DNA from: Gibbula magus
Taxonomy: Eukaryota; Mollusca; Gastropoda; Trochida; Trochidae
Direction: 5' to 3'
DNA: 64,000 nt
NCBI GenBank assembly: GCA_936450465.1
Contig: OW388305.1
Location: 40,314,687-40,378,686, forward strand
Both the position numbers and the translations under genes were made by a program. Shown here one piece after another: positions 18,256-54,115 of this stretch. A model generated the notes under the pieces. It made no database searches. It worked only from the letters and a program-made list of their open reading frames with translations, and was not told the origin of the DNA. How positions within the stretch are numbered: position 1 is the first letter of the stretch; each line of letters opens with the position of its first letter.

Positions 18256-18257
18256 AC

Positions 18258-19055: not shown

Positions 19056-19061
19056 TTAATA

Positions 19062-27540: not shown

Positions 27541-27640
27541 ACAAATAAAATATCATGGAAAGCTGATTCTGCATATTTAAAGTGATCACGTTCGGTCAAG
27601 AATTACAATCCTAAATGGTTCAACTAATTTCCATTTCCAG

Positions 27641-28590: not shown

Positions 28591-28598
28591 AATCTTAA

Positions 28599-28954
28599 AG
28601 GGGCAGTAGCACGTTTTTTTGCAAATTTTATTTTTTCAAATTTCCCACTTATAATGATAGTTTATGACATTTTTATTTACTTTAGAGGGTAAACCATCTT
28701 ATTACACAAACCAATTACCCGTAGTGGTTATAGCGGTGTTGCGTATGAAGCAAAAATTGCAAGGCGGCCATTTTATTGTGAACACAATTTATTATATTTC
28801 AAATGACGAAAACGATCTCCATGGCTTTACGAAGCCATGTATACTTATTTTTAACTCGATTTTCTGAAGAGAGAAATGTGGTTTACTATTAGTGACATTA
28901 TTTTTCAAATACAGTTTATCAACTTATTTCAGCGAAAAAACGTGCTACTGCCCC
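28599..28954. mobile_element. complete TTAA-flanked MITE
   Basis: The ends are inverted repeats: AGGGGCAGTAGCACGTTTTT on the left and CGTGCTACTGCCCC on the right. TTAA flanks both sides (28595-28598 and 28955-28958). The TTAA flanks suggest a piggyBac-like source, although a 3-bp TAA duplication of Harbinger type would also fit this copy. The interior has no coding capacity. Confidence 0.85.
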
Positions 28955-29076
28955 TTAATTATATAATTTGGAGCGAGATACTCAGTTCTACCAGTGAAAT
29001 AAACCTCCTATCAAGGTACAGTGGTAACCATCGTCGTCACTCTACTGAGTGGTGATTAAATTTATCGCCACTCGCG

Positions 29077-31735: not shown

Positions 31736-32249
31736 GTAAGTGCTGACTACTGTAAACACACTACTAGGATGTATCTGCCTTGTATTAGTCACTAAGAAAG
31801 CTGTTACGCTTCAAGCTACAATAAACCATGCTCAGAGACTTTGCACATGAATAAGATACAATAATTAGCTCTTATAGCACAATCATTTAAACAAAATATT
31901 TTACGAAACAAAACTCTTTTAGAGCTAATATCTCCTAAACCAGAAACGATCACGTGGTCCCTTGTCCGGTAGCCTTCACCAAATGTTGCCATGCGTAAGG
32001 AATCCTTGATCAGGGCCACTTCATGTGACGTCATGACAGTATATGACGCCATACATACCTTCGATGTTGGCCGAAAAACTAATTGGAATTATTTTAGTAA
32101 ACTAAAAATTTATATTCAAATAGCAGTCAGTTTCCAGGTAAATGTAATAAATTGCAACTTTCATTTCTCGGAAGAGGGTCAATTCTAACTGAAGTGGCTG
32201 GCACATGACAGAATGTTTACACAAAACATTACGAAACATTCTTTCATGA

Positions 32250-32762
32250 CTAATGCTTCTTGCCTTTTGCTAAATCCCTTAGAAAATTAGAACCTCTCCC
32301 TTTTATCACAGTGTGCATCGGGTTTTGTATAAGAACCGAAGCAACATTTTGTCTGAAAACTTTTGCCAGAAGTATTCCGATTGCAGATTGGTCGTATCTG
32401 TGACACTTTGAATATCTGCGAAAATTTTGTGAGCATGTCAACATTTTCCTGGATTCTGGTGGACACATACAGTCTGGATCTAAGGCACAAGCGGCCCAAG
32501 GTTCTAAGAGAACACGTTGAGTAAAGGGTTCATTATGGAGCACCACATGACCCCCCTCCACTTCATCATACACAGAGAACTGACAAGCCTCGTCCCCGAA
32601 ATAACTGAAGAACTTGCTGGAGGTGTGCTGAGCTATTTGGTAGCCATTTCTTATGGACAAAAAACCGGTAGTTGCAACAGTCTCGAAATAGGATGTCATA
32701 GGCTTCCAGTATCTAACAGACGCATCCAACCACACAAGGAATTCTGTATTCTGAAGATGCGC
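32250..32762 (-). CDS. exon 7 (last) of the DUF1647-like gene, intact copy
   Basis: 513 bases from the acceptor TATATCTTACAG to the stop at 32250. 170 codons carrying WLDASVRY, VATTGFLS, LEPWAACALDPDCMCPPES and CHRYDQSAIGILLAK, and ending DLAKGKKH. Fully open, unlike its duplicate at 39763-40274. No AATAAA was seen immediately downstream. Confidence 0.88.
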   Translation of the reverse strand, partial: AHLQNTEFLVWLDASVRYWKPMTSYFETVATTGFLSIRNGYQIAQHTSSKFFSYFGDEACQFSVYDEVEGGHVVLHNEPFTQRVLLEPWAACALDPDCMCPPESRKMLTCSQNFRRYSKCHRYDQSAIGILLAKVFRQNVASVLIQNPMHTVIKGRGSNFLRDLAKGKKH

Positions 32763-35700
32763 CTGTAAGATATAGCATTCATCGATTAGCCTGAATCCTC
32801 ATGTGTTTTGCAAAAAGATACACTTTTGTCCTGAATTATTAAAGTTAAAGCAGTAGTTTATGACAGAGCAGGACAAAACTGTATTTTGTTTTCAGAAAGA
32901 TGATGGCCGAGGCTGAGCTTCTTTTTACGTGTTTTTAAAAATAATGATATTTCTTTTTCAGATACATAGACATATATATGATATTACATTCATAGTCCAA
33001 AGTATTCAATATAAGTACACACACACACATATTGGTACGTGTTTTGGTTTTAATATTACAAAATAAACTTAATCAAATGTGACCATTGAATCAGAGCTTC
33101 AAGTGACGTCACAACAGTATTGGTTTTGGTCTTTTTAAGTCAGGGACATCTTTGATCTACATTCAAGACATCTTGGACGTAAAAATTAAAACTATATATT
33201 CATCGTCAACTTTCTAACGATACATTATTTTTGATTATCCGTTATCCTTTGCTGTGACTGTATCCATACGATATACTTGCATTTTAAACAATATTCAATA
33301 AATCAAGCAATTGCTATGAAATGTAACTTGATATAATAATCTGCTATCTATTGTACATACCAATATAATCAGTGGTTTCCAAAGGTAGCACTTAAGATAT
33401 CGTGTCGAGGGAGAGAATTTACTGAAGGGAAAATTCCTTAGTTCTGCTCCAGAAAAATTGCGCACCTGTGAACATTAAATGAATAATATACATATGGAAA
33501 AAAGTTAAGCAGCTCATGTTGTAGGAGCAAAATAAAGATTTTGTGACAGATGTCTTAAAAGAAAAATGACCCAAGTTGAGATTTTAGAATATTAGGACTA
33601 TAAACTAACTGTCCTTGTGCCTAAACATTAAACATTTAAGATTTCAGATATCAAATGAAATAAAAGGAAATAACAAAATTCGATACATTTATATAGCAAA
33701 CAAAACAATGGTGAGGAAAATCAGGAAGATAAAAAAGAATGAGAATGGTGTACAATGGGATCTTTGTAATACAAACATGAGGAGGTGATGCTTGAGATGT
33801 TTTACATTGAGGATTTGCAATACAAATATTAGGGGAGCAAATACTTGATTGGTGAATAAACAGTCACATTTTATTAAAGATATAAGTAATACAAATTGAT
33901 AAAATGAGGGAAGTCAATGGGATGTATTGACATTATAAACGCACAATAATTACAGTTGATTAATTACAAAGCCACTTACTCACCACTCATTGGCCTCTCC
34001 TCCAATGAACTGTAATTACTCTCTGTTTACAATTTCAATATTAAAACAACACAATACTGACCGAAGACGAGATACGAGGTCAATACTTTATTCTCAATAG
34101 TCTCTTAAAACAGGTACTGACCGAATTCGCCAGACCATAAGTGTTGTATTATGTAATTACTAGGGGTGGGACATAGAGACAATTATTCCAGAACATGAAT
34201 TCTATTTCATTTAATCATCGTGTCTCCAAAATTAAAAAAAAAAAAATTAAAAGAAGAAGGGGATTTAGAAACGATTTGGCCCCTCCCTCTGGGTCCGCCA
34301 CTCCATTACACCCTGATAATGACCCAGCCAATACCTACGTGTTTTATGTTCGTGACCCAGAAGATGTCACACATAGAACTTAAACTAAATATCAGGATCT
34401 CCCATAAACCCAACCTTCGTACTCGTCTTGTGTGATGGAACAGGCAAAGCTGGTCAACGAGGCTCTGGTAGAGCTATATGGACCAATCACCTTTACAGTG
34501 GATCAATTACAGAAAGACGAACAACTCTAAGAAAGACAAGTAACGTCATTATACATGAACAAGAGGATATGCAGCCAAACAGGGAAAGTCCAAGGGATCC
34601 TTCTTGGCTGATTCTGTAGAAGACATACATCTAACATCGGGTCCTGGAATGTCAGGACCATGTACATAAGAGGAAAAACACAAATCATAGCCAGAGAGAT
34701 GAATACATACAGCATCAATCTTCTAAAAATATCAGATGCAAGATGGGTACAATTCTGAAAAAACAAACTGACAACAGATAAACAGACCCTGTACTCAGGG
34801 CATGATGCAGACAAGGCTGCACACATAGAAGGCGGAGGCTTCATGCTGTCAACAGGAGATCAACGAGCATTGATTGGGAACCAGTCAGCTCAAAACTCAT
34901 CAGAGCCACCTTCAGAACCAACCAGAGAAGGATTACCCTCAGATTCATAATGGCTTATGCCCTCACAAACGATGCTGATGAATAAGTGAAAACCACTAAC
35001 AGCAGAGAGTGAGAGGCTCAGAAAGACCACAGAGAGAAATCAAAATGCTCAATGGAGCTCTAAATGTAAAGATCGAATTTGATAACACAGGAAATCATGG
35101 GACAACATAGACTCAGCAATGTCAACAACAACGGAGAATTGTTCCTTGATTTCTGTGCAGAAAACAATTTCATGGTTGGCGGATTCATCTTCCCTAATAA
35201 GGCAATACACAAGGCAACTTTGGTATCTACGGACAATAACAAGGAAAATCAGATTGACCATATCACACGATCACTGGAGGAGCAGATGCAAACTCAGCCA
35301 ATCACCTACTGCTAGCCAATGTCAAGTTGAACCTCAAAGCAATCAGCCAATCCCGACAAAAGAGGGTTGAATACAACACTCAAAAGCTAATGGAGGAAAC
35401 CAAATCCATAATTACCTTAAAGGACCAAAGAAAATGTCATGTCATGGACAAACCATCACAAACCATGAGTGTCCAAGAATACTCTAAGGAAGATCGACCC
35501 CATACAGAAAAGAAAAGATACAATGAACGGCACAAACGGAGGATCAGAAAGACAATCCAGAGGTGAGCAAGAAGGTAAAGGCCAATGTGAGGCAGGACAA
35601 GCGGCAATACACTGAGGATCTCGCCAAACAAGCACAGGAAGCAGCACAGCAACAAAATATGAAGAGGCTCTATGAGACAACCAGTCAACTGCAAGAAAGA

Positions 35701-38700
35701 AAACCGAGAGTCACCCCTTAAATCTAGGATATTGAAAGAAATGTTCTTACTACCAACTACTTAGAGCAGTTACCCTGTCTGGACATCTATGAACTGTGAG
35801 CTGTGAACTACCAAGCAGGCAGCAATACAAACCTTGAAATTGGGAAAAGCTGCAGGCCCAGACAATATTCCAGCTGACTTCCTTAAAACAGACATTGTTA
35901 CATCTACATGCTGGAGAGACTGCTACAGAAGATCTGGGAAGAACCAGAGATACTACCAGAATGGAAAAAAGGGTACACAGTGACACAGCTACAGAAGAGA
36001 GAAGATCTAATACTATGCATGAACTATAGAGACAGGCAAGGTCCTTAACCGTATCATCTTGGAGAGCATGAAAAACTGTAAACAAGCTCCTCAGAGACAA
36101 TCAGAGTCTACATCAACTTCATCGATTACGAAAAGGCATTCAACAGTATTGACAGGCCAACGCTCTGGAAACTGATGGCTCAGTGTGGTATTCCCTACAA
36201 GATCATCTCCCTACTAAAGAACACCTACAAAGAAATACAAAGTCAAGTCATCCAAGAAAGAAAGAGTAACATTGGACATGTTCCAAGTCAACACCGAGGT
36301 GTGACAGGGATGTCTTCTATCTTCATTCGTGTTCCTCCTGGCCATCGACAGGATAATGAAGCAGACAACTGACGGCAAAAAGAGAGGAATCAGTGGATCT
36401 TCACAGAACACCTGGATTTTGACGACCTTGCAGCCCTCTCAGCCACACAGCCTTGCAGTCACACCATCAAATGCAAGAGAATACCAACGAACTTCAAAGA
36501 TACTGGGTCTCCTCATAAACCATAGCAAAACCAAGATCATGAAAATAACAACAAAAAGTATGCCCCCTTTACAGTAAACAACACAGCCTTTCAGGAAGTT
36601 TCATCATTCACCTACTTGGGAAGTATTGTCACCAGCAAAGGAGGTTCAGATGAAGACATCAAAACAAGAATAGGAAAGACTAGGACTGTTTTCTGCTTGC
36701 TGAGAAAGATCTGGAGCTGAAGAGCAATCACAACCAGAACCAAAATAAGAATCGTCAACTCAAATGTGAAGTCAGTGCTCCTCTACGGCTCTGAAACATG
36801 GAGGACAACATAAACATCTACCAGAGAAATCCAGCCCTTCATCAACAGATGCCTTTAGACAAGCATCGACTTACCATCTGATGTACACACACAATGTGCC
36901 AATGCTACAGGTTTATACTGCGAGTTGTAAGAATTAATCACATTGTTTAACAGGTCTAAACTCACATTACCTATGTTTCAATTCAGTTGGATTACAAAGT
37001 CAATGCTGCTGAAAGACTGTAGGCACACTGGCGAAATGATCGTGTGGTAAGCTGTTGGTACAGTCAATGCTGGCGATAGTTGCCTTACTCTGAAGGCGTG
37101 GGTTCGAATCCCGCATAGGACTCGGCTCGAAAAAAGTACAAGAATTTGAAGGTAGTGTTATCCCAAATATAACCATGTTATATTTCTTCACTATCTAAAT
37201 GGCATGTATTTCTAAAGCTAAAGGTGTTTTTTTTTCATGTATAACCATGAAGATAAGTTCATTAGCTCTATGATAATGTGTATTTCTGTGCATGACAATA
37301 AGAATTTCGATTTAAGCATGGATTGGGACAGTACATATATCAACTGGGGAACTTTAGAGTGGACTTTTGTTTCTCGTTATGTATTGTATTTAAAGAGGTT
37401 ATTTATATTTATTATATTTTATCTAGTATTTATATATTATTGATTTATCTTAAAGGCGCTGTTTTTTGCATAATTATTATGTTTTCTCAAATTTGCCATT
37501 CATTATTAACGTTTATAGAATGTATTGATACGTTAATGGGTAAAAGTCCTCATTAGACGACCAGATATCCAAAGAAAACGGCTGTCCATATTAGAAGAAA
37601 ATGATGAGACGTAAGCGACAGTGGTGTGGAACTCTTCAGTGTAAGAGGTAGATTTGTAGGTCTCATGAGAATTTGAGAGATTTGACAGCAAGGATGGTTG
37701 TACCATATTTGAAACTTTATCCTGAGTGTTTAGGTATTGCTACATCAGTCAGATCACATGAACTACCTCCGAGCGTGCATTAGTTTTAGAACTCTTTTTT
37801 TTTTATTGATTTAGAAGTATTATTTAGTCATTGGTAACACTTATTTATATGTTTGTGAGAGCACCTACTTCTAAGTATATATTGGGATTTGATCCCATAC
37901 ATTAACCAGTGGGAAACCAAATGGGATTTCTATCCCATGGGACAGCTATTGGGAGAGGGTACCCGTATCGTGTTAAAGATACAGGGTACAAAGTAGGAGT
38001 TTTATTCCAAAGTCTTAAGTTTGAAGAACCTGCAATGATAAGTTTGCAAAACTGTAACTAATGTGTATGGTCTGTGCTGATGATATTTGCCATTCTCAGG
38101 GTATGGGGTCGAAACCAGCAAGGCACTCGGCCTGACAAAAATACTAGAATTAATAGTAGTGTTATCCCAAATGTAAAAATGTTCGATTTGTTCACTAGGT
38201 AAATGGCACGTTTTTTTCTTATGTGTACTTGTTCTATTATTTAATCTCGGGTTTCCAGATTAAGTTTGGTCCAAGGGTCAGGAAGTTTGAAATATCGTTT
38301 ATCTGATAAACTCTGAATGCCTCAAATACATTTTTAACACTTTTTTAAAATTACTGTATGGGTAAACTGTATGATGGAACAAACTATGACACTGCAACAT
38401 CTGCATTTATATCCATTAAGAACTGAATACCAGGCCCTTTACAATCAATCAGAGGTATGTATAATATTTACAATTCATATGAGCATTAATTCATTTTCAG
38501 GTTCTTTTCTTCAAACGCCACAGCGAAATATATGTACATTGCAAAATCTACAATGTAGACGCATTTAGAGATACATACGAAGTGCCCGTCAATCAATCTT
38601 TATTCTCAGTACTGAAAAGGCCACAGGCTTGGAGTACATTTACAGTTTATATGAGCAGTAAATCATTTTCAGATCTTTTTCTTTAAATGCCTTAGCGAAA

Positions 38701-41700
38701 TATATGTACATCGTAAGTTTCTGTATTAAAATTGTCTTAGTATATGCTATAAATGATATAAATGTTATTGTTATTGTAAATTAATTGTTATTATGATTCT
38801 AATGTTTTTAGTACTAATGCTAGGCGTAGTATATGTACTTTGCAAGATCTAGACACATTTAGTGGTATAAACGAAGTGCCCATCAATCAATCTTTATTCT
38901 CAGTACTGAAAAGATCACAGACTTGGAGTACTTTTACAGTTTATATGAGCACTAAAATCATGTTCAGGTTATTTTCTTTTTAGGCCTTAGCGAAATATAT
39001 GTACATTGTAAGATTTTGTTTTAAAATGGTTTTAGTAAATGCTATACATGCTATTGTTATTCTTAATTAATTGTTATTATGATGCTAATGTTATTAATAC
39101 TAATGCTAAGCGACATATATGACGTACATTGCAATATTCTGAAGTAAAAACGTGTAAGTATATGCTATAAATGATATTTATTTTAATGTTATTGTTAATT
39201 AATTGTTATTATGATAGCAATGTTAAGAATACTAATACTAGCTTTAGGACTGACACTTAAAGTATTATAAATTTACAAAAGGAAGATGATGAGGAAAAGT
39301 TAACCATTCTCCATAGCATTATGGTCACTGAAAAGTGCAGGCGTTTAGTCATCAGCCAAGGACTAATTCCATTTGGTCTTAATTATTTTTTGGAAAAAAT
39401 GAAATTTTAAATTCATAAATTCATAGAATATATTTATATAACTCACGACTTTCTTCAATTTTAACCATACAAATGTTGCCATGAGTTGAGAATCTTTGAT
39501 CAGGGCTACTCCAAGTGACGTCATGACAATATTGTCTTTGACGTTATGGATACCTTCGATCTTGGCCGAAACTAATGATGAAATGAATTTTAATAAACTA
39601 AATATCAAATGTCAGCATATATCAAATCAGTCAGTTTTCAGGTAGATTCAATAATTTGCAACTCCTCGGAACAGGGTCAATTCTAACTGGGTGAGCTATG
39701 AGTTGTAGTGGATGACCGATGACAGAGTGTTCACAGTAACATTATGAAACATGCTTTCATGACTAATGCTTCTTGCCTTTTGCTAAATCCCTCAGAAAAT
39801 TGGAAGTTTTACCGGGGCCCGCAATGTGAATCGGGTTTTGTATATGAACCGAAGCAACATTTTGTCTGAACACTTTTGCCAGAAGTACTCCGATTGCAGA
39901 TTGGTCGTATCTGTGACACTTTGAATATCTACGAAACTTTTGTGAGCAGGTCAGCATTTTCCTGGATTCTGGTGGACACATACAGTCCGGATCCAAGGCA
40001 CAAGCGGCCCAAGGTTCTAAGAGAACACGTTGAGTAAAGGCTTCATTATGGAGGAACACATGACCCCCTCCACTTCATCATACACAGAGAACTGACAAGC
40101 CTGGTCCCCAAAATAACTGAATTAATTGCTTGAAGTGTGCTGAGCCATTTGGAAGCCGCTGCTTTTGGACAGAAAACCGGTAGTTGCAACAGTCTCGAAA
40201 TAAAATTTCATGGGCTTATTGTATCTGACAGACGCATCCAACCACACAAGGAATTCTGTATTCTGTATATGCGCCTGTAAGAAATAGGATTCAATAACGG
40301 ACATCGATTAGCCATGTGTTGTGTAAGAATTCTTAGAGATTCAGTAGAGCAAAATTGCCACAAAGAAGTTTGATTTATGTTTTACAAATAATTTGTTTCA
40401 AAATAAACTTGGCCGTTAATCAGAGTCACTTTACATGACGTCACTATAGTATTGTTTTTGTTCTTTTTTAGTCAAGGAGATCTTTGATCTACAGTCAAGA
40501 CATCTTGGAGTAAAAATTAAAACTTAATATTCACTGTTAGCATCGAAACGTTTCAGGACTTTTCATTTTCAAATATTTAGCAAATCAAGCAATTGTAATA
40601 AAATGCAACTTTATTATAATAATCTGTTATCGATGGTACCTACCAAAATAACCAGTGGTTTCCACAGGTAGCACTTATATACTGAAGGGAAAATTTCTAA
40701 GTTCTGCTCCCGAAAAATTACGCACCTGTGGACATTAAATGTTATTTCAATTTGTTTGGACACTTTGTTCAGAAATTAGAAAAAGAAATAGAAATGTTAT
40801 GCTATCAGGCATTGTTATGCAAGTCTTTGAAGGGCATTTAGAAATGGCATACATAAAAACAGGAATATTTTCTGGATAACAAATGTGAATGTGAAATGTG
40901 AAAATACTCGACGTTTCGGAGTATATAATCACTCCTTTATCAGGTAGAATGTAGGGAAATAAGAAAATGTGATACATTTATATAGCAAACAAAACAATGG
41001 TGAGGAAACTCAATCAGGGACAACAACACTTGTTACAACTACTATTCGCACAGTATGAACAGGTAACACTCATACCTTTTCCTTAAATTCACAATTGATT
41101 TTTGTCTCACCAACATCCGCTCTTGTTCATTCAGTCCCAGATCGTAGAAGTAGAAGGAGAAGTTGCTCAAATGAGGGAAGACGTTCTTATGTAGGAGACG
41201 AATAGCTTCTTGAGCCTCACCGAAATGATTCGATGAAGCCCCTGTCACAATCGTGTAATTTTTACCGGTTGGCTTCAACGAAAATGCGTCGATAACCTCC
41301 CTTAGTTTCTTCATCCCGACCTTTCTAACTGGAGTTAGTATGCTTCGGACGTTTTCCTTAGATGAATTTTCATGGAGGGGTTTTGTGCAGTTCTTATCCA
41401 CACACCTGCCTGTTAAGAGTGTAAATATCTCTGCATAAATATAAGTTACCATGAGAGTGTGTTTTGGGATGGTCAGTATCCTGCATTAGGAATAAACATT
41501 GTATTTAGCGAGCCATGGCGAGATTTTAGACTTTTGTGTAATGTATAAAACTGTAAGCCCCACTCTACATCTAGTAGTTTCCCCAGGCATTAGTTTCAAT
41601 GTAAAGTGATGTAAGTTCAACTTGAAATCTAGCAGGCTATTGAGACCTAACGTTTGATGTAAAGTACAAAAAGTCACACTTTACATCTAGAAGACTACTC

Positions 41701-44700
41701 AGACCTTAGTTTTAATGTAAAGTGATGTAAGTCTCAATTTAGATCTAGCAGGTTGTTCAGGCTTTAGATAGATATCTAGCAATACACTCAGACCTTAGAT
41801 TTTATATACATCCGACTTTACATTTAGTAGTCTACGGTGTACTTAGCTGCAATGTAAGGACTTGTAAGTCCGAGTTTACATTTACCAGTCTTATGAGACA
41901 TTGCTTCATTGGTTGATGGATAAGCAGGCAACAGGCAATATAGTTCGTGGCAGGAGAAGAACGTTTGTTCCCCTATATTCTTACACTGTCGGCCAAAAGA
42001 AACGCCTACCAAATATATTATCAGATTTCGTAAAAACTATAATTAACAGTTTAGCAATATTATACCATTATGCAGTTGCACCATTTCTCCATAATAGATT
42101 TAAATTTTCGAAGTTTTCATGTCACAAAAGAATGGCGATTGTTGAAATTAGACAACATAATTGTTCAATTTTCGATCAGTACTTGATCAGAAAAACATTT
42201 GAAACATATTTTCATACAACGACGAGCAACAATACAGACACGCTTTCGCATTAAAGTGGGTATGGTGTGCAAGTGAATCAACAGGAAATATCGGTCTTCA
42301 TTGGGCGTGGTTTTCATGAATGTTATTGACTCGAATCACAGTTTTCCCACGATTTCAACGGACTTTCATATTAGTTATTGTTTCAGCATAACATGGAGAC
42401 CACCATTAATTATATTTCAGAAATTATTTCATCTTTCATTTTAAGGAAAATCAAGTAGGCGTTTCTTTTGGCTGACAGTGTATACTAACCATCGGACGTT
42501 CCTAGAAACAGTAATACTTACTATTGAGTGCCTGGTGTGGCGTGCAGTTTCTCATCGTTATTTTTCGTAACATGCCTGCATCTTTTAAGTCTGAAAAAAA
42601 CATCCAGTGATCCAGTTCCCAGAAGCATTCATTATAAACATTGACTACATTCAACATAAGAAAGGATGAATCAATTGAAGCATACACTCTTCACCTGTAT
42701 TGAAGACAACACAGTGTGATAGTGAATCGCACTGGTATTCAATTATACATTATATACTGAAGTACAAAAGAAAGTATGCACATCAGTTGGTTTCGATTAA
42801 ATCAATAGTGTTAATGAAAGTAGATGCATTTGATTAAGGCATGATACAATAATGCTTTTCAGCAGTAGTTTGAATGAATTACATTGATGATTGGTTACTT
42901 TTTAGTTAGAATACCTTTGTTTAATGTAGAAAAGGACAAGAAATGAAATTTACACCAACATTATCCCTACCAGGTTTATAATGTTGTAAATATGTGCATA
43001 AAGAGGCACATTTATTTATTTTCACATGTAAGATGTCTTCAATGTTGTGTTTTATCTAAATTAATTTCGAAAGATATTATGAATTTTTTTTTAAATTCCA
43101 AAAATTAAACACCACATATAAGTATTCCTTGGCTAATGACTAAATGCCTGCACATTACAGTTATAGAGTACGACGTCGAAAACATAAGATATTTGAAATA
43201 GAAAATCAAACATGATAAAACCAACTGAGGTGTAAACTTTCTTTTGTACTTCAGTTTATCATTCATTAGTCACACAACTCAACGTCAACAGGCCTAAAAT
43301 GCATCCCTAGGCGTATATATTACAATATTAGCTTGTTGGAATCTTCAAACCGCTTTTACATAAAAATTGCCATCAAGTTCCTGTCACACAATAGCATACT
43401 TGCAGGTGAGGTGAACAAATTTAAAAGTTGTAACCAAGGGCAAATTTAACACTTACCATTGATGGGGATTGTGTGCAAATAGGCCAGGGACCAGTCTCTA
43501 TCTCAGGATAAAAAGTGGTGAAATCTGCTTGCCGGATCCTTCGGAATTTGTCCGATTCCTCCACTATTTGGGAGAATCCGAAAAGATCCGGCAAATGGAT
43601 TCCACCACTTTTTGGCCAGTGTATAAGAACAATCAAAAGTAAAGACCCTTTCAAGAAGGACATCAAAACCCAACTATTCACACTAAATCAATGATTCTCT
43701 TATAGACTCACATTTTCGTCTTTTAAGTGCCCCTATGAAAATTGTTTGGTTTTTATGTGGAAACATGCGCTTTAAAAATTCATTATGAATATGAACAGAC
43801 TTCAGATTACCGGGGAACAAACCTTTTATTTTCTGATGAATTAATTCAACCACTTCTTCTTCATGTAGAGTTACTTCGTCAACCCCCTGCGAGGATCCGT
43901 CTGTGAACAAGAACAATTCTAAACAAAATCTCTCCCCATATATACATGGCAAAACAATTTTTTACCGGTAAAAGTTTTCTAATAAGAAAGTAGACAATGT
44001 ATCAGGAAAATCAATTGAGTGATATGACAGAAGCATTATCTACCAGTTTAACAAAGCAAATTTTATACAGATATAACGTTTCACAAATATGTGATATATG
44101 CATTCATAAAATTGTGTTATATTGGTATCCAGGAATAAATATTGTTATACTGAAAATTAAAAGTCAGTATTGGCTGTTGTACTGTGAGTAAATCTATTCT
44201 ATCAAGTGAACTGATTAACCATTAGTTACTTACGTTTAACAAAAATAAAGTAAATTAGTAGGAACCTTCCAAATCAGATTGTTTGGAAAAAGACAAATTT
44301 GAACAAAGTTGCTTACTGACGGTATTACTGTAATGACACCTCTAAATCACAGCGATGTGTCAGAGTAACACATCGAACTCATTAAGATCTCAGAATAATT
44401 CCAAAATCGATTAATTACAATCTTATTATAACTAATTGTTGGAAAACCGCTATAGACCTAATAGATGGGGAATGTTGTTGCCCACCTTTTTGTGAAAAAT
44501 TTGTGAAATTATCTTCATTAGTTTTCGATAAATTGAGGTTTGAAGTAGGGATTTCAAGGGGAGATAACTCAAGAAAAAATTGGTTACTAAAAATCTAACA
44601 TTCGAGTTTTATTTCAACTAAAATAGTTTGTTTTAATACCAGACATGAATTTGACCTAGATAAATATACCAGCCCGACCATCGGGCTGGTAGGATTAATA

Positions 44701-47700
44701 TTTTACCAGTACCTAACGAAATTAGCCCGTCTCGGGCGTTTGGGCGGGCAGCAGTTTCCTACACTGTATAATCTTATTTCTGAATGACATTGTATAAGAA
44801 GTATACATTGCAAGGCTCTGTGATAATTGAGTGTTGGTTTCTGTTAACAGTGACACTAGTTTGTTACATTTGAGTAATTATAAATAGCACGGTTTAAAGG
44901 CGCTGTAGCTCATTTTTCTTTCATATTTGGTTTTCTCAAATTTACTATTTATCATCAAAGTTTACACAATATACTGTTATGTTAGAGGGCAAAACATCTC
45001 ATTACACGACTCCATAAGCCGCATCCATAGAAAATGGTTGTCGGCATTGGACAAAAATGACACGACATATAAAGAGACAGTGGTGTGGAACTCTTCAGTG
45101 TGAGAGGTAGATTTGTAGGTCTCATGCGAATTTGAATTCAGAATTCGAGATGGTTGACAATTCTTTCATGGTTCGATCTTTATTACTCTATTTTCAGTGT
45201 TTAGGTATTGCTACATCAGTCAGATCACTTGAACTACCTTCGACCATCTATTTTAATGTGAACAACTTAAATGGCCGCTCGAAGAGGGTTAACAAACAAC
45301 GTACATTCGTTTTAGAACTCCTTTTATTGCTTGATGAGTATTATTGGTAACACGTATAACTTTTCGTGAGATCACTTTATTTCAGTAAGAAAAACGTGCT
45401 ACAGCGTCTTTAAAGGCGCTGTAGCACGTTTTTTGCAAATTTTATTTTTTCAAATTTCTCATTTATAATGATTGTTTATGTCATTTAAAGTAACTTTAGA
45501 GGGTAAAACATCTTATTACACAAACCAATGATCCGTAGTGGTAATAACGGTGTTGCGTATAAAGCCAAAATTGCATGGCGGCCATTTTATTGTGAACACA
45601 TTTTATTATATTCGAATGACAAAAACAATTCCCATGGCTTTACGGAACCATGTACACTCATTTGCAACTTGATTTTCCGAAGAGAGAAGGGTGGTTTACT
45701 ATTGTTGACATTATTTTTCAAATACATTTCATCGACTTATTTCAGCAAAAAAACGTGCTACAGCGCCTTTAAGGTATTTGTTCTTATACCCCCATCACAC
45801 CAAACCCGTTCTCACAACGTTCTTGTTTTTTTTGGAAAACGGGCTTGAACTGTGCTCGAACTGTGCACAAACGGAGTGGACGTAATGGCAACTGTTTACA
45901 AACTTTATGGACGGGCTCGAACTGGGTAAGAACGGAATGGTGCTCCAGAACGTTGAACATGTCCAACGTTCTCCCCGTTCTAAATTTGGACGGAGTAGGA
46001 ACGTAGTAAAAACGGGATTGCCGTACTAAGAACGGAATTGCCGTATTGCGAACCTACTAAGGACGAGTAAGAACGTTGTGCAGTCGGGACGCGATTGCAA
46101 TACGTTTGTGCACAGTTTCCACCCAGTCCATGACGTCCTCAGTCAGATCGAACTCGACCGCAGTACGACCATAGTCAGGTGCTCTAACGTCCAAATATGT
46201 GTAAATAAATTAAATTGTTTCGATTGAGTTCTTAGTACGTTCCTACACAGTTATAAAAGTTCGCATTAGGTTGTCATTGCGTTCTACTCGTTGTTAGTAC
46301 GTTTGCGAAATCTCTACACAGTTCTTACGACGTTGGCAGTACGATGCGAATGAACTGGTATAAATACAGGCGTGTTAATACGTTTATCACTTTGGTTATA
46401 TTAATGACCAGAGAACCATGAACAGAGTTACTGCTCTCAGTATGTTGAATGTAGGGTTTCTACAGTGGAATTTGGTCTTTGCGCAAGAACAAAGAAAAAG
46501 AACAAGAACTTGCTGGGTGAGGCTTAAACCTGAGAGGCGAATAGCTGTCGGACATTCTACAGGGGTTGAAGATATTGTATTTGGTTTTCTTTGAACCATC
46601 TTCTTCTGAATACACTTCTTGTTCTTCCTGGGAGGCATGATGTTTTCACCTTGAAGTTCAGGACGGCAATGAGAACGGACAAGAACTTTCTGGGTATTTA
46701 TAAAAAACGAGGCAGGACGTGACGAGCACGCACAGAGAACGGAGGACGGAGTGAAAACGGAGAGAACTGTCTTAAAACGAGTTAGAACGGTATTGTGCGT
46801 ATTAAGAACGAGATAGGTCTAGTCAAGAACGACTTAGGACGGAATTGGACTGGCTGAGAACGTTGTGAAATCGAGGTGAACGGTCAATATTATGCAATCT
46901 AAACGTGGTACCAACTGTCTGAGAACGGCGTAAAGACTAGATGGACGTTCTGAGAACTGTTTGTGAAGGTACTTGGGTCGTTGTTTGATATACAGGAAAC
47001 AAAAGTTGCTCGTTTCTATCCCGTTCGAGGCCGTTCTACAATATTTTTTGGACGGAGTAGAACGTAGTGAGAACTACCTTGGTGTGACTCAGGCATAAGG
47101 ACTTTTGTAAACCGGACAGGTAAACAAGACATGTAGCTCAACTTCAACATAGTGTTGTAACAAACTGGACATGTTCTGTTTTCTCTTTCAACGCCGACAT
47201 ACCTGCCAGTTTCAACAAATAGTTCACGAAATGACCAACGGAAACGAGATAAAGCAATCCGAATTTGATGACATTGATTTATAAAATTTCAGATTTCCAG
47301 TGTCTGTAAAATATACATTTAATTGATAATGATATGAATTCTAACCAGGATTGAAAATAAATATATTTCATTCTTTATTAATGGCCTGATAAATTCCGAT
47401 TGTATAACATAACCATAATATCCTGTTTTTATACAGCGTATCACTCTGATATCAGTTACCCAATATCTCTTACCAGTTTCATCAATCAGTTTCATCAAAA
47501 CATAGAGATTTTTCGGGAATCTGTGCATATTTACCAGTCGTGCCCAATATTTCATAGCTCTAATTGCAGAATATGTAAATAATGGGAATCTGCTAACTCA
47601 CTGTAGACCATCGTGATACATGTGTTTGGCTAGACGCCACGAAAGTTTTTGCTTGCATATATTGAACTTGTTCACTGTTGTAATATCGCAGATTCATAAA

Positions 47701-50700
47701 ACAATTTTGAGTTTATCCTTATATCAAATACTTTATTCATACACACACAATAAAACGTTCAAGGTTTGTGAACGAACGGAATCAATATATTTATGCCCTC
47801 AAGCCACACACCAAATTCGGTAATCATGTCTTAAAAGTTTCTGAGAAAAACTGTCCCCTATTCCCTAGTCCAAAAAAAAACCAAACACGGGCAATTACTA
47901 CAGAAAAATAATCGTGCGCTTCTTATTTTTGAACTCCATTAAGGTATTGATAGGGACGTATGCTTTTTATCTCTTACATTTTGACAGTACAGGAATAACA
48001 TCAGCTTTAACAGTAAAGGAAGTGACATGGCCTTCCAAATATGCTGTGCTAGGATTCCAGAGGCCAGGCTCAAATGAGTCTAGTGTTATCTGAGGCCAGG
48101 CTCAAATAACCCTAGAGTCATTTTCGTACTAGAGTTATCTGAGGCTGATACACCGGGAATAACCCTTCAAATTCTCAGTTAATTCATCAATGAAGTGGCC
48201 GTGCCCATTGTTGCTGACATCCACTGATAGAGGTCGACTGAGGACCACGTACCACCAATTGGGCGATGCGCATAGAATATTACAATACAGAAGTTCATCG
48301 GAGATGGAATAACATTAGTTATTGGATGGTAATAAGGTATCCCAGTTTCAAACGTTCGCAGCTATGGGAATTTGTTAGACGAATTACAGCCATTTTGTAA
48401 CAGGGGTTACATTGGAAGAAACTTACTTGAGTAAACTCTCTTTGGGGAGTGAATATAAAAATCAAATAATTAGTCGACTGGTAGATGTATAAGCTATTCC
48501 TTTTCTGTTTGTCGAAGCGTTCCGTGCATTTTACAAAAATATGTTAATGTATTTCAACACAGTTTATGTTAATACTCATATGCGTAGCAGATTCCCGTGA
48601 CTAAATTGCTATACAAAATACGCAATCCTTCAGTTTCTAACATGTCGACAAACACTTTTTATAACTTTGAATCTATTGACACTATTTGATGATTAAAAAT
48701 TAAATTAAATTAAAATTACAAAAATCTGAGATCTGAGAACTTCCCCGCAAAGTATAACTCGCTCCTCTCTATCACTGGTTACTTTAGCGTTGCTGCATTT
48801 TGTCGTCTTTTCTGTGCCAGAAAGAGACTGGAGCAAGATATGCCTTGCGGGCCAAGTTGAGATTTGGTTTGTGCATAACTTGAAAATCAACTTACTGTGT
48901 TTGCCTGGTACGGAGTGTTTTTCTTCTTGGTGACGACCAACCTCCTGGCGCCATAGGAGGAAGCCGGTTAAAGCTATACAAATGAAATAAAAACATTAAT
49001 TCTTTTTTTACACATACGTCTATGAAGAAATGAAGAACTATACTAAAGCCCTGTTTACACGGCGAGCGTTTGCATATGTGTAAAGCATTACACATGTGCA
49101 AATTTGCTCATACGAGCAAACTTCGCTGTATGAACGCCTTTGCACATATGTATATTTTATTACCGTAAGCAATTTTTTTTCTGGCAACCAGAATTTAGAC
49201 TTAAAGGCATAGACTTTTTGATTCAAATTATGTTCTGAGTTTTTCAATTCTAGGGGGAAGTCTTCCCAATAATTCAGATTGCACCCAAAGCAAATCCCCA
49301 GGTTATGACTCGTGATAAAATAAAATATTATCTTAAAATATTTAATTATTAGGCATGAAACTGGTAAAAAGCAAGAGAAATGTATGGAACTTTCCTCATT
49401 TACCTAAGAGCATAATGAGTTTGAATGGCAAATGATGAATGACGAATGACGAAAAGCGACAAAAATAATTACTTTTCATCATTCAAAGGTGAAAGGCGAA
49501 AAAAACTTTGCAAAGGCAAACAGAGATAACTTTTTGCTATTTTATTTTCTCATTATTAAAACTAAGTGCTATTTAGATCAAAGTGTGATTTATAGGAAAA
49601 TAATTTGCACACACATTTTGTTATGTCCTATTTGTTCTGAGTTTTCTCAATTCTATGGCGAAAGTTTTCCCACTAATTCAGATTGCTCCCAGAGCAAATC
49701 CTCGGTCCTAAATTGGTGATAAAATAAAAAGTTTGCAAAAATAATTTAATAATTAGGCATCAAACTGGTAAAACGCTTAGAGAAATGTATGGAACCTTCC
49801 TCATTTTAAGTGCATAATGAGTTGCAATGGCGAATGCAGCATATTATGAAAGACGAATATCAAAATAAATTTGATTTTCATTCATTTTTCCCTACAGTTC
49901 GAAAGACGAATAGCAAATAAATTTGTTTTTCGTCATTCAAATGTGTGAACAATATGAAAAACGAATAGCAAAACAATTGCTATTCGTCATTTAAATGACG
50001 AATAACGAATAGCGAATAGCGAATAACAGTCTAAATTATGGTTGCTTGGAATTTTCACTACCGTACAATGTAAGCAATTTTGCACCTAGTCAAGGGCAGG
50101 TGCAAATGTCTACTACCATAAGTAAATATGTCTTTTTCATTAGTCTAGTAAAAGTTCGTCGTTTACAGATACAGTGACTTCACACAGGTTTAGAAAATAT
50201 ATTAGAAGACTTTAGAAACTCATAATTTTGTTTTTAAAATTTTCTCTATAGGATTTTCTCCTTCTTGCACGCGATGATCTTCGAAATCAATCTGACTATC
50301 CGATTTTCATTATAATTTGGGCGATATAGTCAAACCAATGTTGACAGATATATATTCATGTCATTTATTTAGTTTACATCTACGATAATAACTATTAATT
50401 GGCATTTTTTAGGAATTCTTTATTCATAGAGCCTATTTGCTTAGGCAGAAATTAAACACGTATGAACGCATAATAAATTTACTTTTACTCTCGTGTGTAT
50501 ATTGCTACCATAAGCATATGTGCAAAGTTCGCCGTATCAACAAGGCTTATGATTTTATAATACATTATCTCAAGTTAACAATAATTACACTGGCCAGTAA
50601 ATATGAAATATAAAACCTAACAAGGGGCTAATATAACGCCGTGACACATGACGGATTGTTATAATCTTACATTATTTGAATTAACAAAATATACAAACAT

Positions 50701-52296
50701 ATGTTAAGAGCGATAAAAACGCATAACAAGAAAAGGAATGATTAAGCACGCAGCTAAACTAGCACAGAACAGTTACTGAAGTGCGACTTGAATGTGTACT
50801 TGAATAGTCACGAAAACGACTGCTATGGATATTGGGCAGGTTGAACATAAGGGTATGTTTGTACTTGAATAGTCACGAACACGACTGCTATGGCTATTTG
50901 GCAGGTTGAACATAAGGATTTGTTTGTACTTGAACAGTCACAGAAACGATTGCTATGGATATTGGGTATGTGGAACATAAGGATATGTTTGTACTTGAAT
51001 AGTCACAGAAACGATTGCTATGGATATTGGGTAGGTGGAACATAAGGATTTGTTTGTACTTGAATAGTCACAGAAACAATTGCTATGGGTATTGAGTAGG
51101 TGGAACATAAGGATTTGTTTGTACTTGAATAGTCACATAAACGATTGCTATGGATATTGGGTAGGTGGAACATAAGGATTTGTTTGTACTTGAATAGTCA
51201 CAAAAACGATTGCTATGGATATTGGGTAGGTGGAACATAAGGATTTGTTTGTACTTGAATAGTCACAAAAACGATTGCTATGGATATTGGGCAGGTTGAA
51301 CATAAGGGTATGTTTGTACTTGAATAGTCACGAACGCGACTGCTATGGCTATTTGGCAGGTTGAACATAAGGATTTGTTTGTACTTGAACAGTCACAGAA
51401 ACGATTGCTATGGATATTGGGTAGGTGGAACATAAGGATTTGTTTGTACTTGAATAGTCACAGAAACGATTGCTATGGATATTGGGTAGGTGGAACATAA
51501 GGATTTGTTTGTACTTGAATAGTCACAGAAACAATTGCTATGGGTATTGAGTAGGTGGAACATAAGGATTTGTTTGTACTTGAATAGTCACAGAAACGAT
51601 TGCTAAGGGTATTGAGTAGGTGGAACATAAGGATATGTTTGTACTTGAATAGTCACGAAAACGACTGCTATGGATATTGGGCAGGTGGAACATAAGGATT
51701 TGTTTGTACTTGAATAGTCACAGAAACAATTGCTATGGGTATTGAGTAGGTGGAACATAAGGATATGTTTGTACTTGAATAGTCACGAAAACGACTGCTA
51801 TGGATATTGGGCAGGTGGAACATAAGGATTTGTTTGTACTTGAATAGTCAAAGAAACAATTGCTATGGGTATTGAGTAGGTGGAACATAAGGATTTGTTT
51901 GTACTTGAACAGTCACAGAAACAATTGCTATGGATATGGAGGAGGTGGAACATAAGGACATGTTTGTACTTGAACATTCACAGAAACGATTGCTATGGAT
52001 ATGGAGCAGGTGGAACATAAGGACATGTTTGTACTTGAACAGTAACACAAACGATTGCTATTGGTATTGAGCGGGTGGAACATAAGGATCTGTTTGTACT
52101 GGATTATATTAAAACTATGAGACACAGAAAATGCCACATTGCCCACATTCAACAAATATCGTAACAAAAACCTTTCAATAATTATGTAACTAATTATAAA
52201 ACATATTTAACTTTACAACGAATATCACCTGTAAGAATATGTGTAGTGTAGCTCACCTAAAACAAACAATAGAACGTTCCTGTATTTATGCTTCAT
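32250..52296 (-). CDS. DUF1647-like type II membrane protein, probable Golgi glycosyltransferase-like enzyme (7 coding exons)
   Basis: Minus-strand gene assembled from seven exons: 52296-52257, 48973-48896, 43900-43712, 42590-42522, 41409-41076, 33436-33361 and 32762-32250. Every intron is GT-AG and all phases fit, giving 1299 bases and 432 residues. Residues 1-6 are basic (MKHKYR), 7-21 are a short membrane anchor (NVLLFVLALTGFLLW), and about 22-150 form a stem with several N-glycosylation sequons. The catalytic-like part has TGASSNHFGE (181-190), YDLGL (214-218), YLWKPLII (254-261), WLDAS (273-277, a possible metal or nucleotide-sugar motif), EPWAACAL (349-356) and HRYDQS (383-388). SSNHF, YDLG, WKPLI and DQS recall the DUF1647-type family of nematodes and molluscs; the transferase role is inference. 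An in-frame TAA lies 15 bases upstream of the ATG. The reaction and substrate are unknown. Confidence 0.85.
33361..33436 (-). CDS. exon 6 of the DUF1647-like gene (intact copy)
   Basis: 76 bases from GAACTAAG| to ATATTG|GTATGT. Encodes NFPFSKFSPSTRYLKCYLWK followed by PLIIL. The WKPLII block is the expected link between the YDLGL strand and the WLDAS motif. The AAG acceptor is less usual than CAG. The alternative CAG 29 bases upstream would put a stop in the required frame. Confidence 0.78.
33726..34429. other. intronic sequence without recognised coding exon
   Basis: Within intron 5. A patch near 34165 reads TAGGGGTGGGACATAGAG and resembles a MITE end. Frames at 34195-34435 have no domain. 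Nothing else supported. Confidence 0.45.
34430..36960 (+). pseudogene. RTE-type LINE relic (endonuclease plus reverse transcriptase) in intron 5
   Basis: A plus-strand relic. Endonuclease starts near 34635 with GSWNVRTMYIRGKTQIIARE, then ALIG and RITLRFIMAYALTNDADE. The end of the domain reads NNKENQIDHIT, then LLLANVKLNLKAISQSR near 35310, the usual RTE transition. RT motif A is at about 36100-36230 (FIDYEKAFNSIDRPTLWKLM), followed by a decayed palm and then SSFTYLGSIVTSKGGSDED and LLYGSETWR at 36600-36810. Many stops and frameshifts. The order and motifs are those of RTE-clade elements. It lies antisense to the host gene. Confidence 0.85.
37035..37215 (+). mobile_element. second tRNA-derived SINE family, copy 1
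   Basis: Contains a B-box GGTTCGAATCCCGC, then AGGACTCGGC and GGTAGTGTTATCCCAAAT, ending in CTAAATGGCA. The same order recurs at 38080-38215, defining a family distinct from the (ACTC)n SINE. Confidence 0.7.
37454..37800 (+). mobile_element. diverged TTAA-type MITE
   Basis: AGGCGCTG follows TTAA (37450-37453). The interior, with GGTGTGGAACTCTTCAGTGT and TGTTTAGGTATTGCTACATC, matches the element at 44898-45409. The right terminal repeat has been lost or is too diverged to mark. Confidence 0.7.
38080..38215 (+). mobile_element. second tRNA-derived SINE family, copy 2
   Basis: GGGTATGGGGTCGAAACCAGC (diverged B box region), GCACTCGGCCTGAC, and TAGTGTTATCCCAAATGTAA parallel the copy at 37035 in the same order. 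Confidence 0.65.
38465..39235 (+). repeat. tandem array of a roughly 295-bp unit
   Basis: CGAAGTGCCC followed by TCAATCAATCTTTATTCTCA starts units at about 38578 and 38873. A partial unit precedes them from about 38465 with the shared phrase GCGAAATATATGTACATTGC. About 2.5 units, noncoding, within intron 5. Confidence 0.85.
39763..40274 (-). pseudogene. decayed duplicate of the last exon (exon 7')
   Basis: Homologous to 32762-32250 along its whole length, with the acceptor TTTCTTACAG retained. It has an in-frame stop at 40122-40124 in the segment corresponding to HTSSKFF, and a 1-base deletion in the C run near 40065-40070 (five C where the intact copy has six). The C-terminal half (EPWAACAL, CHRYDQSAIG) is otherwise well preserved in a shifted frame. 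Confidence 0.92.
40644..40696 (-). pseudogene. decayed duplicate of exon 6 (exon 6')
   Basis: Homologous to 33436-33361. Splice-site positions are kept (CTTAG acceptor, GTAGGT donor), but 23 internal bases are lost, leaving 53. Read in the frame supplied by exon 5 it reaches TAA after six codons, so its inclusion would truncate the protein before the WLDAS motif. Confidence 0.88.
41076..41409 (-). CDS. exon 5 of the DUF1647-like gene (N-terminal catalytic region)
   Basis: 334 bases from the acceptor ACACTCTTAACAG to the donor GAAAAG|GTATGAGT. Carries YTIVTGASSNHFGEAQEAIR and FSFYFYDLGLNEQE, the clearest family signature in the gene. It starts in phase 1 and ends in phase 2, so it can join only an exon opening with a single completing base. 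Both 33436 (intact) and 40696 (broken) satisfy that. Confidence 0.88.
41540..41890. repeat. degenerate tandem repeat in intron 4
   Basis: Diverged units of roughly 75-80 bp share TTACATCTAGTAG-like and TTTTAATGTAAAGTGATGTAAGTC-like phrases (no single consensus assumed). At least four can be seen. Noncoding. Confidence 0.7.
41984..42480. mobile_element. mariner/Tc1-like MITE with TA flanks (intron 4)
   Basis: The left end CACTGTCGGCCAAAAGAAAC and the reverse complement of the right end CACTGTCAGCCAAAAGAAAC match with one difference, continuing into GCCTAC. TA flanks both sides (41982-41983, 42481-42482). 497 bp with no transposase. The plus-strand frame 41901-42254 crosses the boundary and is not a gene. 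Confidence 0.92.
42522..42590 (-). CDS. exon 4 of the DUF1647-like gene
   Basis: 69 bases from the acceptor GTTTTTTCAG to the strong donor CAATA|GTAAGTAT. Encodes LKDAGMLRKITMRNCTPHQA with a sequon at NCT. Phase 1 at both ends, so the exon could be skipped without a frame change. Confidence 0.8.
42700..43500. other. intron 3 sequence, nothing recognised
   Basis: AT-rich, with no coding pattern or bounded repeat. Confidence 0.4.
43503..43622. mobile_element. palindromic GGATCC-type MITE (intron 3)
   Basis: AAAAAGTGGTGAAATCTGCT pairs with GGATTCCACCACTTTTTGGC across a GGATCC-rich centre of about 120 bp. Same family as 29448-29565. Confidence 0.88.
43712..43900 (-). CDS. exon 3 of the DUF1647-like gene (stem)
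   Basis: 189 bases from the acceptor TTGTTCTTGTTCACAG to the donor GAAAAT|GTGAGTCT. It encodes an acidic segment (VDEVTLHEEEVVELIHQKIK), then FPHKNQTIFIGALKRRK with an N-Q-T sequon. Phase 1 at both ends. Confidence 0.82.
44668..44690. repeat. perfect 10-bp stem hairpin
   Basis: ACCAGCCCGA, loop CCA, TCGGGCTGGT. A second GCCCGTCTCGGGC palindrome lies about 40 bases downstream. GC-rich hairpins in an AT-rich intron suggest a small fold-back element. No run of T follows, and a bacterial-type terminator is not applicable in this genome. Confidence 0.8.
44898..45409. mobile_element. TTAA-flanked MITE, subfamily 2
   Basis: Left end AGGCGCTGTAGCTC, right end ACGTGCTACAGCGTCT as inverted counterpart. 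TTAA at 44894-44897 and 45410-45413. The interior, containing GGTGTGGAACTCTTCAGTGT, matches 37454-37800. Confidence 0.88.
45414..45768. mobile_element. TTAA-flanked MITE, subfamily 1, abutting the previous one
   Basis: Left end AGGCGCTGTAGCACGTTTTT, right end CGTGCTACAGCGCCT. TTAA at 45410-45413 is shared with the preceding element and recurs at 45769-45772. The interior is homologous to 28599-28954. Confidence 0.9.
45783..47100. mobile_element. 1.3 kb DNA transposon with about 45-bp TIRs (intron 2)
   Basis: The left end, containing CATCACACCAAACCCGTTCT, and the reverse complement of the right end, containing AGTCACACCAAGGTAGTTCT, match over about 45 bases, including GTTCTCA.ACGTTCT. The interior is dense in GAACG/CGTTC words. 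A minus-strand frame at 46638-46396 starts MPPRKNKKCIQKK and has no recognisable transposase. Superfamily unknown: flanking TTATA and ATAAG leave the target duplication ambiguous. Truncated relatives are at 16489-16935 and 58685-59205. Confidence 0.82.
47140..47640 (-). pseudogene. LINE C-terminal relic related to LINE-C and LINE-D
   Basis: The minus-strand frame 47555-47319 opens MKYWARLVNMHRFPKNLYVL, equivalent to FIKYWLKLVNM in the LINE at 23041-25640. Further along the same strand, near 47170-47210, is a GRYVGVERENRTC segment equivalent to GRWEGITRENRTC of the LINE at 61131. The central part has decayed. Confidence 0.75.
47650..48890. other. intron 2 sequence without a recognised element
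   Basis: A local repeat, AGGCCAGGCTCAAAT, occurs twice at 48060-48110 with ATCTGAGGC between. Otherwise nothing recognised. The short minus-strand frame at 48890-48705 is intron read-through next to exon 2. Confidence 0.45.
48896..48973 (-). CDS. exon 2 of the DUF1647-like gene (anchor end and stem)
   Basis: 78 bases between the acceptor TTTCATTTGTATAG and donor ACACA|GTAAGTTG. Frame LTGFLLWRQEVGRHQEEKHS completes the membrane anchor and begins a charged stem. It needs phase 1 at both ends, and both neighbours supply it. Confidence 0.82.
49046..50548. mobile_element. 1.5 kb TIR element in intron 1
   Basis: The left end, AAGCCCTGTTTACACGGCGA followed by GCATATGTG, is matched by the reverse complement of the right end, AAGCCTTGTTGATACGGCGA followed by TTTGCACATATGC. 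The interior contains a roughly 400-bp diverged tandem duplication (49228-49480 against 49628-49860, both with TTCTGAGTTTT.TCAATTCTA) and GACGAATAGCGAATA-type short repeats near 49990-50030. No transposase. Superfamily undetermined. Confidence 0.8.
50783..52100 (+). repeat. 65-bp satellite, about 20 units, in intron 1
   Basis: Consensus unit of exactly 65 bases, beginning GGATTTGTTTGTACTTGAAT and ending GGTAGGTGGAACATAA. Variants (GGGCAGGTTGAACATAAGGG with a mutated neighbour GGCTATTTGGCAGG) at 50834 recur at 51289, 455 bases or exactly 7 units later, indicating a 7-mer higher-order period in the proximal part. Distal units diverge. Since 65 is not a multiple of three and frames shift from unit to unit, it is noncoding. 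The array ends about 160 bases from exon 1. Confidence 0.97.
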
Positions 52297-52368
52297 CGTG
52301 GCTGTTCTTTACTATTTCAAAGCGTTGATTCGGAGGACCTCGAGATCTTCATCAAGACTGTGACAGAA
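52257..52368 (-). CDS. exon 1 of the DUF1647-like gene (5' UTR plus start)
   Basis: The exon begins after the acceptor TATTTTGTTTCAG, so at least one upstream noncoding exon exists, possibly beyond 52370. The ATG is at 52296 and encodes MKHKYRNVLLFVL. The donor is TTTTAG|GTGAGC, phase 1. The split codon GCT (Ala) forms with exon 2. Confidence 0.82.
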
Positions 52369-52854
52369 CTGAAACAAAATATGAAATGACAAACTCCTTA
52401 TTGAATCTTTATCTATAGGTGTCTATAGTTGTATTAAATGTACAGAACTCAATTTCGTAAAATACAATTAAAAATAAATTCATAAACGTAGTATATTTTT
52501 CTTGGCAAATGTTCTCATAAACTGAATATGTTTTTCTCACTATAAAATGTCACGTTTAACTAGCAATATCAGAATAATCAACTCCTTTCTCGGAAACTAT
52601 CGACATTACACAGGATGTTGGTAATAGTCATTTGTTTATTAAAACTTATGTACAAAGACTAAGAGATTGTAATCAACAAGATTAGTATACTAGAATTTAG
52701 GTACATTATGTAACTATAAGGTGTATAAATCATCGCTTTCAGTAGAATCTATTAATTTTGTGTATCCCATTTCGGGAATAAAGAAGACTTTTGTGTGTGT
52801 TACGTATTGGACAGCTTCCCTTGATGATCAATATCGACCATCCTCGGTTACCCA

Positions 52855-53205
52855 TGGTTTTATATATGCTCCGTTACTCTCCACTATATCACCCATCGGA
52901 AATCTTATCAGGAGAATCTGTACTCAAATTACCCGCCCTTGCCGGCGTGAGCCAATCAAACTGCTACGCAGCTTGGACCTGCGAACCAATGACAATTCAT
53001 ATCACTTCGTTTCAAAGCAAGCAAGGTCATTGTGTTAGCTATCCGTCACCGGTTATCTCCCTTGACCATTTCTGTCTTATCCCATTGAGCATATTTTCTT
53101 TAGTTAATGACTTCGTCACGCTGGCCAAAGGCGGGTAATTTGAGAACAGATTCCCCTGATAAGGTTTCCCATGGGTGATAAAGTGGAGCGACATATAAAT
53201 TGTCG
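52855..53205. mobile_element. fold-back MITE, copy 2
   Basis: Left arm TATATATGCTCCGTTACTCT through CAAATTACCCGCCCTTGCCG. The right arm is the reverse complement: GGCCAAAGGCGGGTAATTTG through GTGGAGCGACATATA. Arms are about 90 bases each. The overlapping plus frames 52721-53138 are by-products. Confidence 0.9.
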
Positions 53206-53329
53206 ATCTCACGTGTATCCACCCTCGGTGTTTATTGTGTATATTAATTAAAAAAATGATATTGTATATGGCTAAGGTGGTTTTAAGCTTTTTAGAACTG
53301 TTCTTGTATGTATATTTCACGACATACAC

Positions 53330-53515
53330 TGTATATTTTATCTTTTATCATGTATTTGTGTATTTATATAAGATTATATTGTCTCTCGTAAGTCGCTGAG
53401 CGACTGGCTGTAGGACATCTTATGATTTTTTATGTTTTATATTTACACTTATTATTTCATTTTATGTAACTACGTATACAAGTGAAACATTAATAAAATT
53501 ATCTGTCTGTCTGTC
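53330..53515 (+). mobile_element. LINE-like 3' tail with (TCTG)n
   Basis: CTCTCGTAAGTCGCTGAGCG, then GTGAAACATTAATAAAATTA and a TCTGTCTGTCTG run: a polyadenylation-like signal followed by a short tandem tail, as in many LINE 3' ends. A related diverged tail is at about 54365-54420 (CCTCTCATAAATCACTAAGT). No coding sequence is attached. Confidence 0.6.
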
Positions 53516-53825
53516 TACACACGTGAATGAATGCAAGAATGATCTTGAATTTCAAACAGTGTTCAATGCCCAATCGATGATAGCGTGTTAGAGTTAATAG
53601 TAAGGAAGACAGCAGGAAATGTTTCTATTTATTAATAAATAAAACAGTGCTCAAGATGTCGACAATGATAACTGCGTACGTTTCTTTGTGAAACGATGAG
53701 TCGCATCCTTCTCAAATTCTATTCAATGTATTTTATTTAACGACCTTGATACATGTGCAGCACATATAATGATGTGTTCACCTACGCCATTGTCCTTTGA
53801 ATCATTGCGGTAGGTGTATTTTTAA

Positions 53826-54115
53826 AGGGGCAGTTGCACGTTCTTTTCCGCTCAAATAAGTCGATGAAATTGATTTGAAAAATAATGTCACCAATAGTAA
53901 AACGCCCTTCTCTTTTCGGGAAATGAAGTTAAAACATTAGTGTATATGGTTCGGTAAAGTCATTGGAATCGTTTTTGTAATTCGAAATAATAAAATGTGT
54001 TCACATTTAAATGGCCGCCATGCATTATACACAACATTACGACGACGGATTATTGGTTTGAGTAAAAAGGTGTTTTACCCTCTAAAGTAAATTTAAATGA
54101 CATAAACTATCATTT
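53826..54115 (-). mobile_element. TTAA-flanked MITE, truncated, inverted
   Basis: AGGGGCAGTTGCACGTTCTT follows TTAA (53822-53825). The interior is the reverse complement of the 28599-28954 element (TTTTACCCTCTAAAGT, CATAAACTATCATTT). The far end is lost. Confidence 0.82.

Follow-up and report, generated by a model that had tools for sequence, protein, structure and literature searches.

What does the minus strand of this stretch of Gibbula magus contig OW388305.1 encode between positions 52296 and 32250, and can a product that belongs to a domain family of unknown function be given a plausible role? In the 64,000-nucleotide window (the whole stretch analysed), this locus holds a real, ordinary-looking DUF1647 gene. 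The reading that we consider likely is a seven-exon gene, probably molluscan, for a 430-residue type II protein, which would be a Golgi glycosyltransferase of the GT-A fold with weakened or absent metal dependence, accompanied by a decayed partial duplicate. The results computed here are the exon structure, the assignment to the family, the fold seen in a homologue, a change in the metal-binding motif and the broken duplicate.

The earlier note, made from the letters alone, had described seven minus-strand pieces with GT-AG borders, a 1299-nt frame and phases 1,1,1,1,2,0, and all of these exist in the sequence at its coordinates. After correction of one junction, described below, the coding frame is 1293 nt (430 amino acids) with phases 1,1,1,1,0,0. 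The coding part of exon 1 (52257..52296; 40 nt) begins with the ATG at 52296 and starts the membrane anchor, and its N-terminus is similar to those of P0003, an abalone protein, and P0004 from Gigantopelta aegis. Exon 2 (48896..48973; 78 nt) ends the anchor and starts the stem, which continues through exon 3 (43712..43900; 189 nt) and exon 4 (42522..42590; 69 nt). The corrected exon 5 (41111..41409; 299 nt) contains the SSNHF and YDLGL motifs, the corrected exon 6 (33361..33465; 105 nt) the WKPLII motif, and exon 7 (32250..32762; 513 nt including the stop) the WLDAS and CHRYDQS motifs.

Against the PF07801 hidden Markov model (HMM), the 432-residue product of the earlier note scored 26.5 bits and the corrected protein 30.0 bits, both above the curated cut-off of 25.7. 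We found 26 homologues (best E value 6.6e-79), led by abalones at no more than 42% identity and with several DUF1647 proteins per abalone species. The 27-row alignment, with rows from molluscs, a coral and a nematode, has 14 invariant columns; S..H..E, W-K, D-x-S and H-R are among the invariant positions, and the order of motifs matches that of the abalone and Gigantopelta homologues. The PF07801 score, the homologues and the shared motifs thus bear out the DUF1647 membership and the conserved motif order that had been proposed. In a 40-row tree built from the first version of the protein, the window protein sits on a long branch and clusters, at support 99/97, with three abalone proteins. A mollusc, probably a gastropod, is accordingly the most likely host. 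Tabulated data in PMC3534327 indicate many DUF1647 members in C. elegans, with 14 genes listed. A literature search by the identifier PF07801 found no paper, the Rfam scan gave no match at the gathering score, and a PDB sequence search with the first version of the protein gave no match.

A duplicate of exons 6 and 7, overlooked in the earlier note, lies within intron 5. Segment A, with the intact exons (31980..33723, minus strand), pairs with segment B (39470..41012, minus strand) in three collinear pieces that are 93%, 70% and 84% identical. The exon 6 copy (40644..40725, minus strand) runs into a stop at codon 17, counted in the printed exon, because of a 23-bp deletion, and the exon 7 copy (39763..40274, minus strand), 89.9% identical, has lost 1 bp and contains an in-frame stop. 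When the exon 6 copies were compared over 26 codons, seven codons differed, six of them synonymously. The ratio of nonsynonymous to synonymous substitution (dN/dS) between the copies was 0.30 (bootstrap 95% interval 0.17-0.54; 4.4% of replicates gave 0.5 or more). This value suggests, without proving it, that the copy was probably under constraint during some of its history and remained useful for a time before it decayed. A partial tandem duplication probably once gave the gene two sets of exons 6-7, of which the proximal set has decayed and the distal one is in use.

The junction between exons 5 and 6 had been placed at 41076/33436, which appears to be wrong; 41111/33465 is better supported by comparison with homologues and with the duplicate. 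The corrected donor of exon 5 lies after 41111 (ATGTTG|GTGAGA) and exon 6 starts at 33465 (GTTCACAG|GTGCGC), by which 41076..41110 (35 nt, minus strand) becomes the probable start of intron 5 and 33437-33465 (29 nt) is added to exon 6. The family HMM score is 360.1 bits with this junction and 351.3 with the former one, a gain of 8.8 bits, and two extra residues between YDLGL and WKP, an insert absent from the aligned homologues, are removed. The corrected exon 6 reads VRNFSGAELRNFPF, near LRNFSKAVVKKFPF of the abalone P0003, and the annotated abalone isoforms P0035 and P0057 differ by exactly 35 residues, a block whose borders are those of the corrected exon 6. Within the 29 nt formerly treated as intron the two copies differ at three sites, all three synonymous, and a further synonymous difference occurs at 33436, just within the former exon 6. 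The corrected acceptor has C at -3 and 11 pyrimidines of 17, as compared with A and 9 of 17 for the old one. In view of this evidence, it is very improbable that 41076/33436 is correct, or that alternative splicing makes use of both junctions, even though the former join is GT-AG and in frame and its donor, counting against the correction, is slightly nearer a simple consensus (7/9 versus 6/9). The 432-residue product and its phase list are wrong because this junction is wrong, while the other five of the six proposed junctions are not contradicted. Since the wrong join is also in frame, the clean frame does not prove the whole model, as had been argued; the correction illustrates that a splice junction cannot be proved from a clean reading frame alone. 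The copy in intron 5 still has AG acceptors and a GT donor and, from its dN/dS, a probable period of constraint, but survival as an alternative set of terminal exons, with a short isoform ending in the exon 6 copy, is quite unlikely given both deletions and the in-frame stop, and such an isoform would be without the entire catalytic half. Less improbable, though still doubtful, is a mosaic locus pieced together from two tandem copies of the gene: the first would supply exons 1-5 and the second exons 6-7, the exon 5 of the second having become unrecognisable through decay. The duplicate does begin, collinearly, about 100 bp beyond the corrected end of exon 5, and upstream of segment A, at 33893-33913, there is a stretch with a weak resemblance to exon 5. 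However, the score of this stretch was reached by 9 of 200 shuffles and, in an anchored test, by 1 of 60, while one more tied with it at the precision printed, and blastn of 40952-54000 against 33601-39480 gave no match better than E 0.79 touching exons 1-4. Because shuffles reach the score of the supposed exon 5 relic, we keep the mosaic only as a rival to a single gene with a decayed partial duplicate.

The support for exons 1-4 was assessed from the number of shuffles, out of 500, that reached the score against each homologue. For the four exons jointly, this number was 1 for P0003, 1 for P0004, 9 for P0105 (Gigantopelta), 50 for P0001 (Haliotis cracherodii) and 98 for P0002. Exons 1-2 alone gave 2 (P0003), 4 (P0105), 6 (P0004), 27 (P0002) and 173 (P0001), and exon 4 alone gave 3 (P0002), 12 (P0001), 123 (P0105), 134 (P0003) and 328 (P0004). 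The full exon 3 was reached by 3 shuffles against P0003, and found no support from P0001, P0002, P0004 and P0105 (394, 262, 58 and 307 shuffles, respectively). Exon 3 is the least certain part of the gene, because only the P0003 comparison favours its full length. A shorter exon 3, using an alternative donor after 90 nt that is in phase by arithmetic, was considered and set aside. The Gigantopelta isoforms P0105 and P0112 show a net difference of 23 codons (69 nt) near the borders of the window's exon 4. As a separate observation, the short predicted Gigantopelta proteins P0105, P0108, P0109 and P0112 end just past the equivalent of exon 5 with a different tail, hinting at partial gene copies elsewhere in the family.

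A confident AlphaFold model of the best-scoring homologue (42% identical over 78%) has the GT-A glycosyltransferase fold. This result backs the guess in the earlier note of a glycosyltransferase-like type II protein, and the GT-A-like structure expected there holds for the homologue, which, and not the 432-residue product, is the protein that was modelled. The fold families considered were those among the Foldseek or VIA-align listings. With VIA-align, the best-scoring folds were GT6, GT8 and GT24, and because these are retaining, retention would be the more likely stereochemistry. GT8 and GT24 are retaining families; the same is stated for GT6 in PMC3961637. Matches in a viral fold library were in many cases named glycosyltransferase and in many cases uncharacterised, and a few had other names.

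The DXD metal-binding motif is a majority feature of GT-A fold glycosyltransferases, not a universal one. In DUF1647 the DXD triplet is replaced by D-x-S. In alignment A3, which comprises 98 of 120 proteins, all 98 have the first D, and the third position holds S in 89 proteins, G in 6, C in 2 and E in 1. When all 120 proteins were aligned to A3, 114 had letters at the motif and six did not; the first D was found in 113 of the 114, and the third residue was S in 103, G in 7, C in 2, E in 1 and A in 1, and in no case D. Near the C-terminus, a basic residue (R or K) is present in 79 of the 93 rows with a letter. Because D-x-S occupies the place of DXD, metal binding is probably weakened or absent, and the conserved basic residue is a candidate helper for the diphosphate. 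The protein is predicted to consist of an N-terminal anchor, a luminal stem carrying both glycosylation sites and cysteines, and the GT-A glycosyltransferase domain. In the Golgi, the protein would bind a nucleotide sugar and pass its sugar on to the glycan of a surface or secreted molecule; we infer this location and activity, as well as the donor, the acceptor, the stereochemistry and the metal behaviour. Through the D-x-S observation, a domain so far without a known function gains a concrete, testable enzyme hypothesis.

Several results weigh against this assignment. Exons 1-4 are weakly conserved and supported in part only, and the GT-A fold was computed on a homologue, not on the window's own spliced protein. 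The Foldseek matches to PDB chains have modest TM-scores (by query, 0.22-0.35 among the 50 matches listed), hhalign against E. coli WaaO and WaaJ was not significant (probability 1%, E 0.055), and a PDB sequence profile search with the family profile found no glycosyltransferase, its one short match having E 0.25. Glycosyltransferase Pfam families were matched weakly, by 1-3 of the 98 members each (among the 25 of 48 families listed). At the motif, P0120 (198 amino acids) reads C-G-S and is the sole one of the 114 without the first D, and P0119, also among the 114, has a different Pfam label. The Foldseek list also includes B3GNT2 and B3GalT5, which are inverting enzymes; because of them the fold does not settle the stereochemistry. 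An alternative which we regard as unlikely is that DUF1647 has the GT-A fold but is no active transferase, having a chaperone or lectin role after loss of DXD. The absence of D from the third position in all 114 proteins agrees with this, as does the precedent of COSMC in GT31, a chaperone in which DxD and xED have been lost (PMC7185993). However, the first D and the third S are largely kept, and the invariance of S..H..E, W-K, D-x-S and H-R from molluscs to coral and nematode looks like a constrained active site. Moreover, GT14 and bacterial GT6 are described in PMC7185993 and PMC3961637 as active enzymes that have lost DXD and need no metal. An active glycosyltransferase is the reading that we consider more likely. 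We suggest, only tentatively, that DUF1647 is a separate animal GT-A lineage working without divalent metal, in which D-x-S and the C-terminal basic residue would replace the DXD-metal pair, as a further independent loss besides those of GT14 and bacterial GT6.

Elsewhere in the window, the gene was not contradicted as the only confident host protein-coding gene: 10 of the 36 open reading frames (ORFs) were scanned against Pfam, and none of the 10 passed the curated cut-off. A 113-aa ORF at 27628-27969 (plus strand) contains a hydrophobic segment and is preceded by a sequence resembling an acceptor, and it might represent one exon of another host gene; the Pfam scan, the only search made with it, gave nothing above the cut-off. 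Two copies of an apparent large mobile element, at 13465-20603 and 55902-63750, match in pieces, with 93% identity over 3.8 kb, and contain 21-bp tandem repeats; judging by the way they read, the ORFs of these copies are reverse-transcriptase-like. Positions 50795-52100, within intron 1 and close downstream of exon 1, are occupied by a minisatellite with a 65-bp unit and about 20 copies (91% matches), and dispersed copies of short repeats lie in or near the gene's introns at 28595-28956, 45410-45769, 44894-45243 and 37450-37772.

The closest known relatives of the window gene are uncharacterised DUF1647 proteins such as P0001 and P0004, which are homologous along as much as 98% of the length and share the motif order, and the abalone isoforms have exon 6 borders in common with it. 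The window gene differs from the homologues found in being at most 42% identical to them and in its broken exon 6-7 duplicate. Among enzymes with the fold, the family may be compared with GT8, represented by glycogenin and E. coli WaaO and WaaJ, which we take to be GT8 members; in DUF1647, the third DXD residue is never D. The bacterial GT6 enzyme BoGT6a, metal-independent and retaining, resembles the family by a fold match only, with 8% identity, and has N-A-N where DUF1647 has D-x-S. The C-terminal basic residue of DUF1647 recalls the cationic residues of BoGT6a that, according to PMC3961637, touch the diphosphate.
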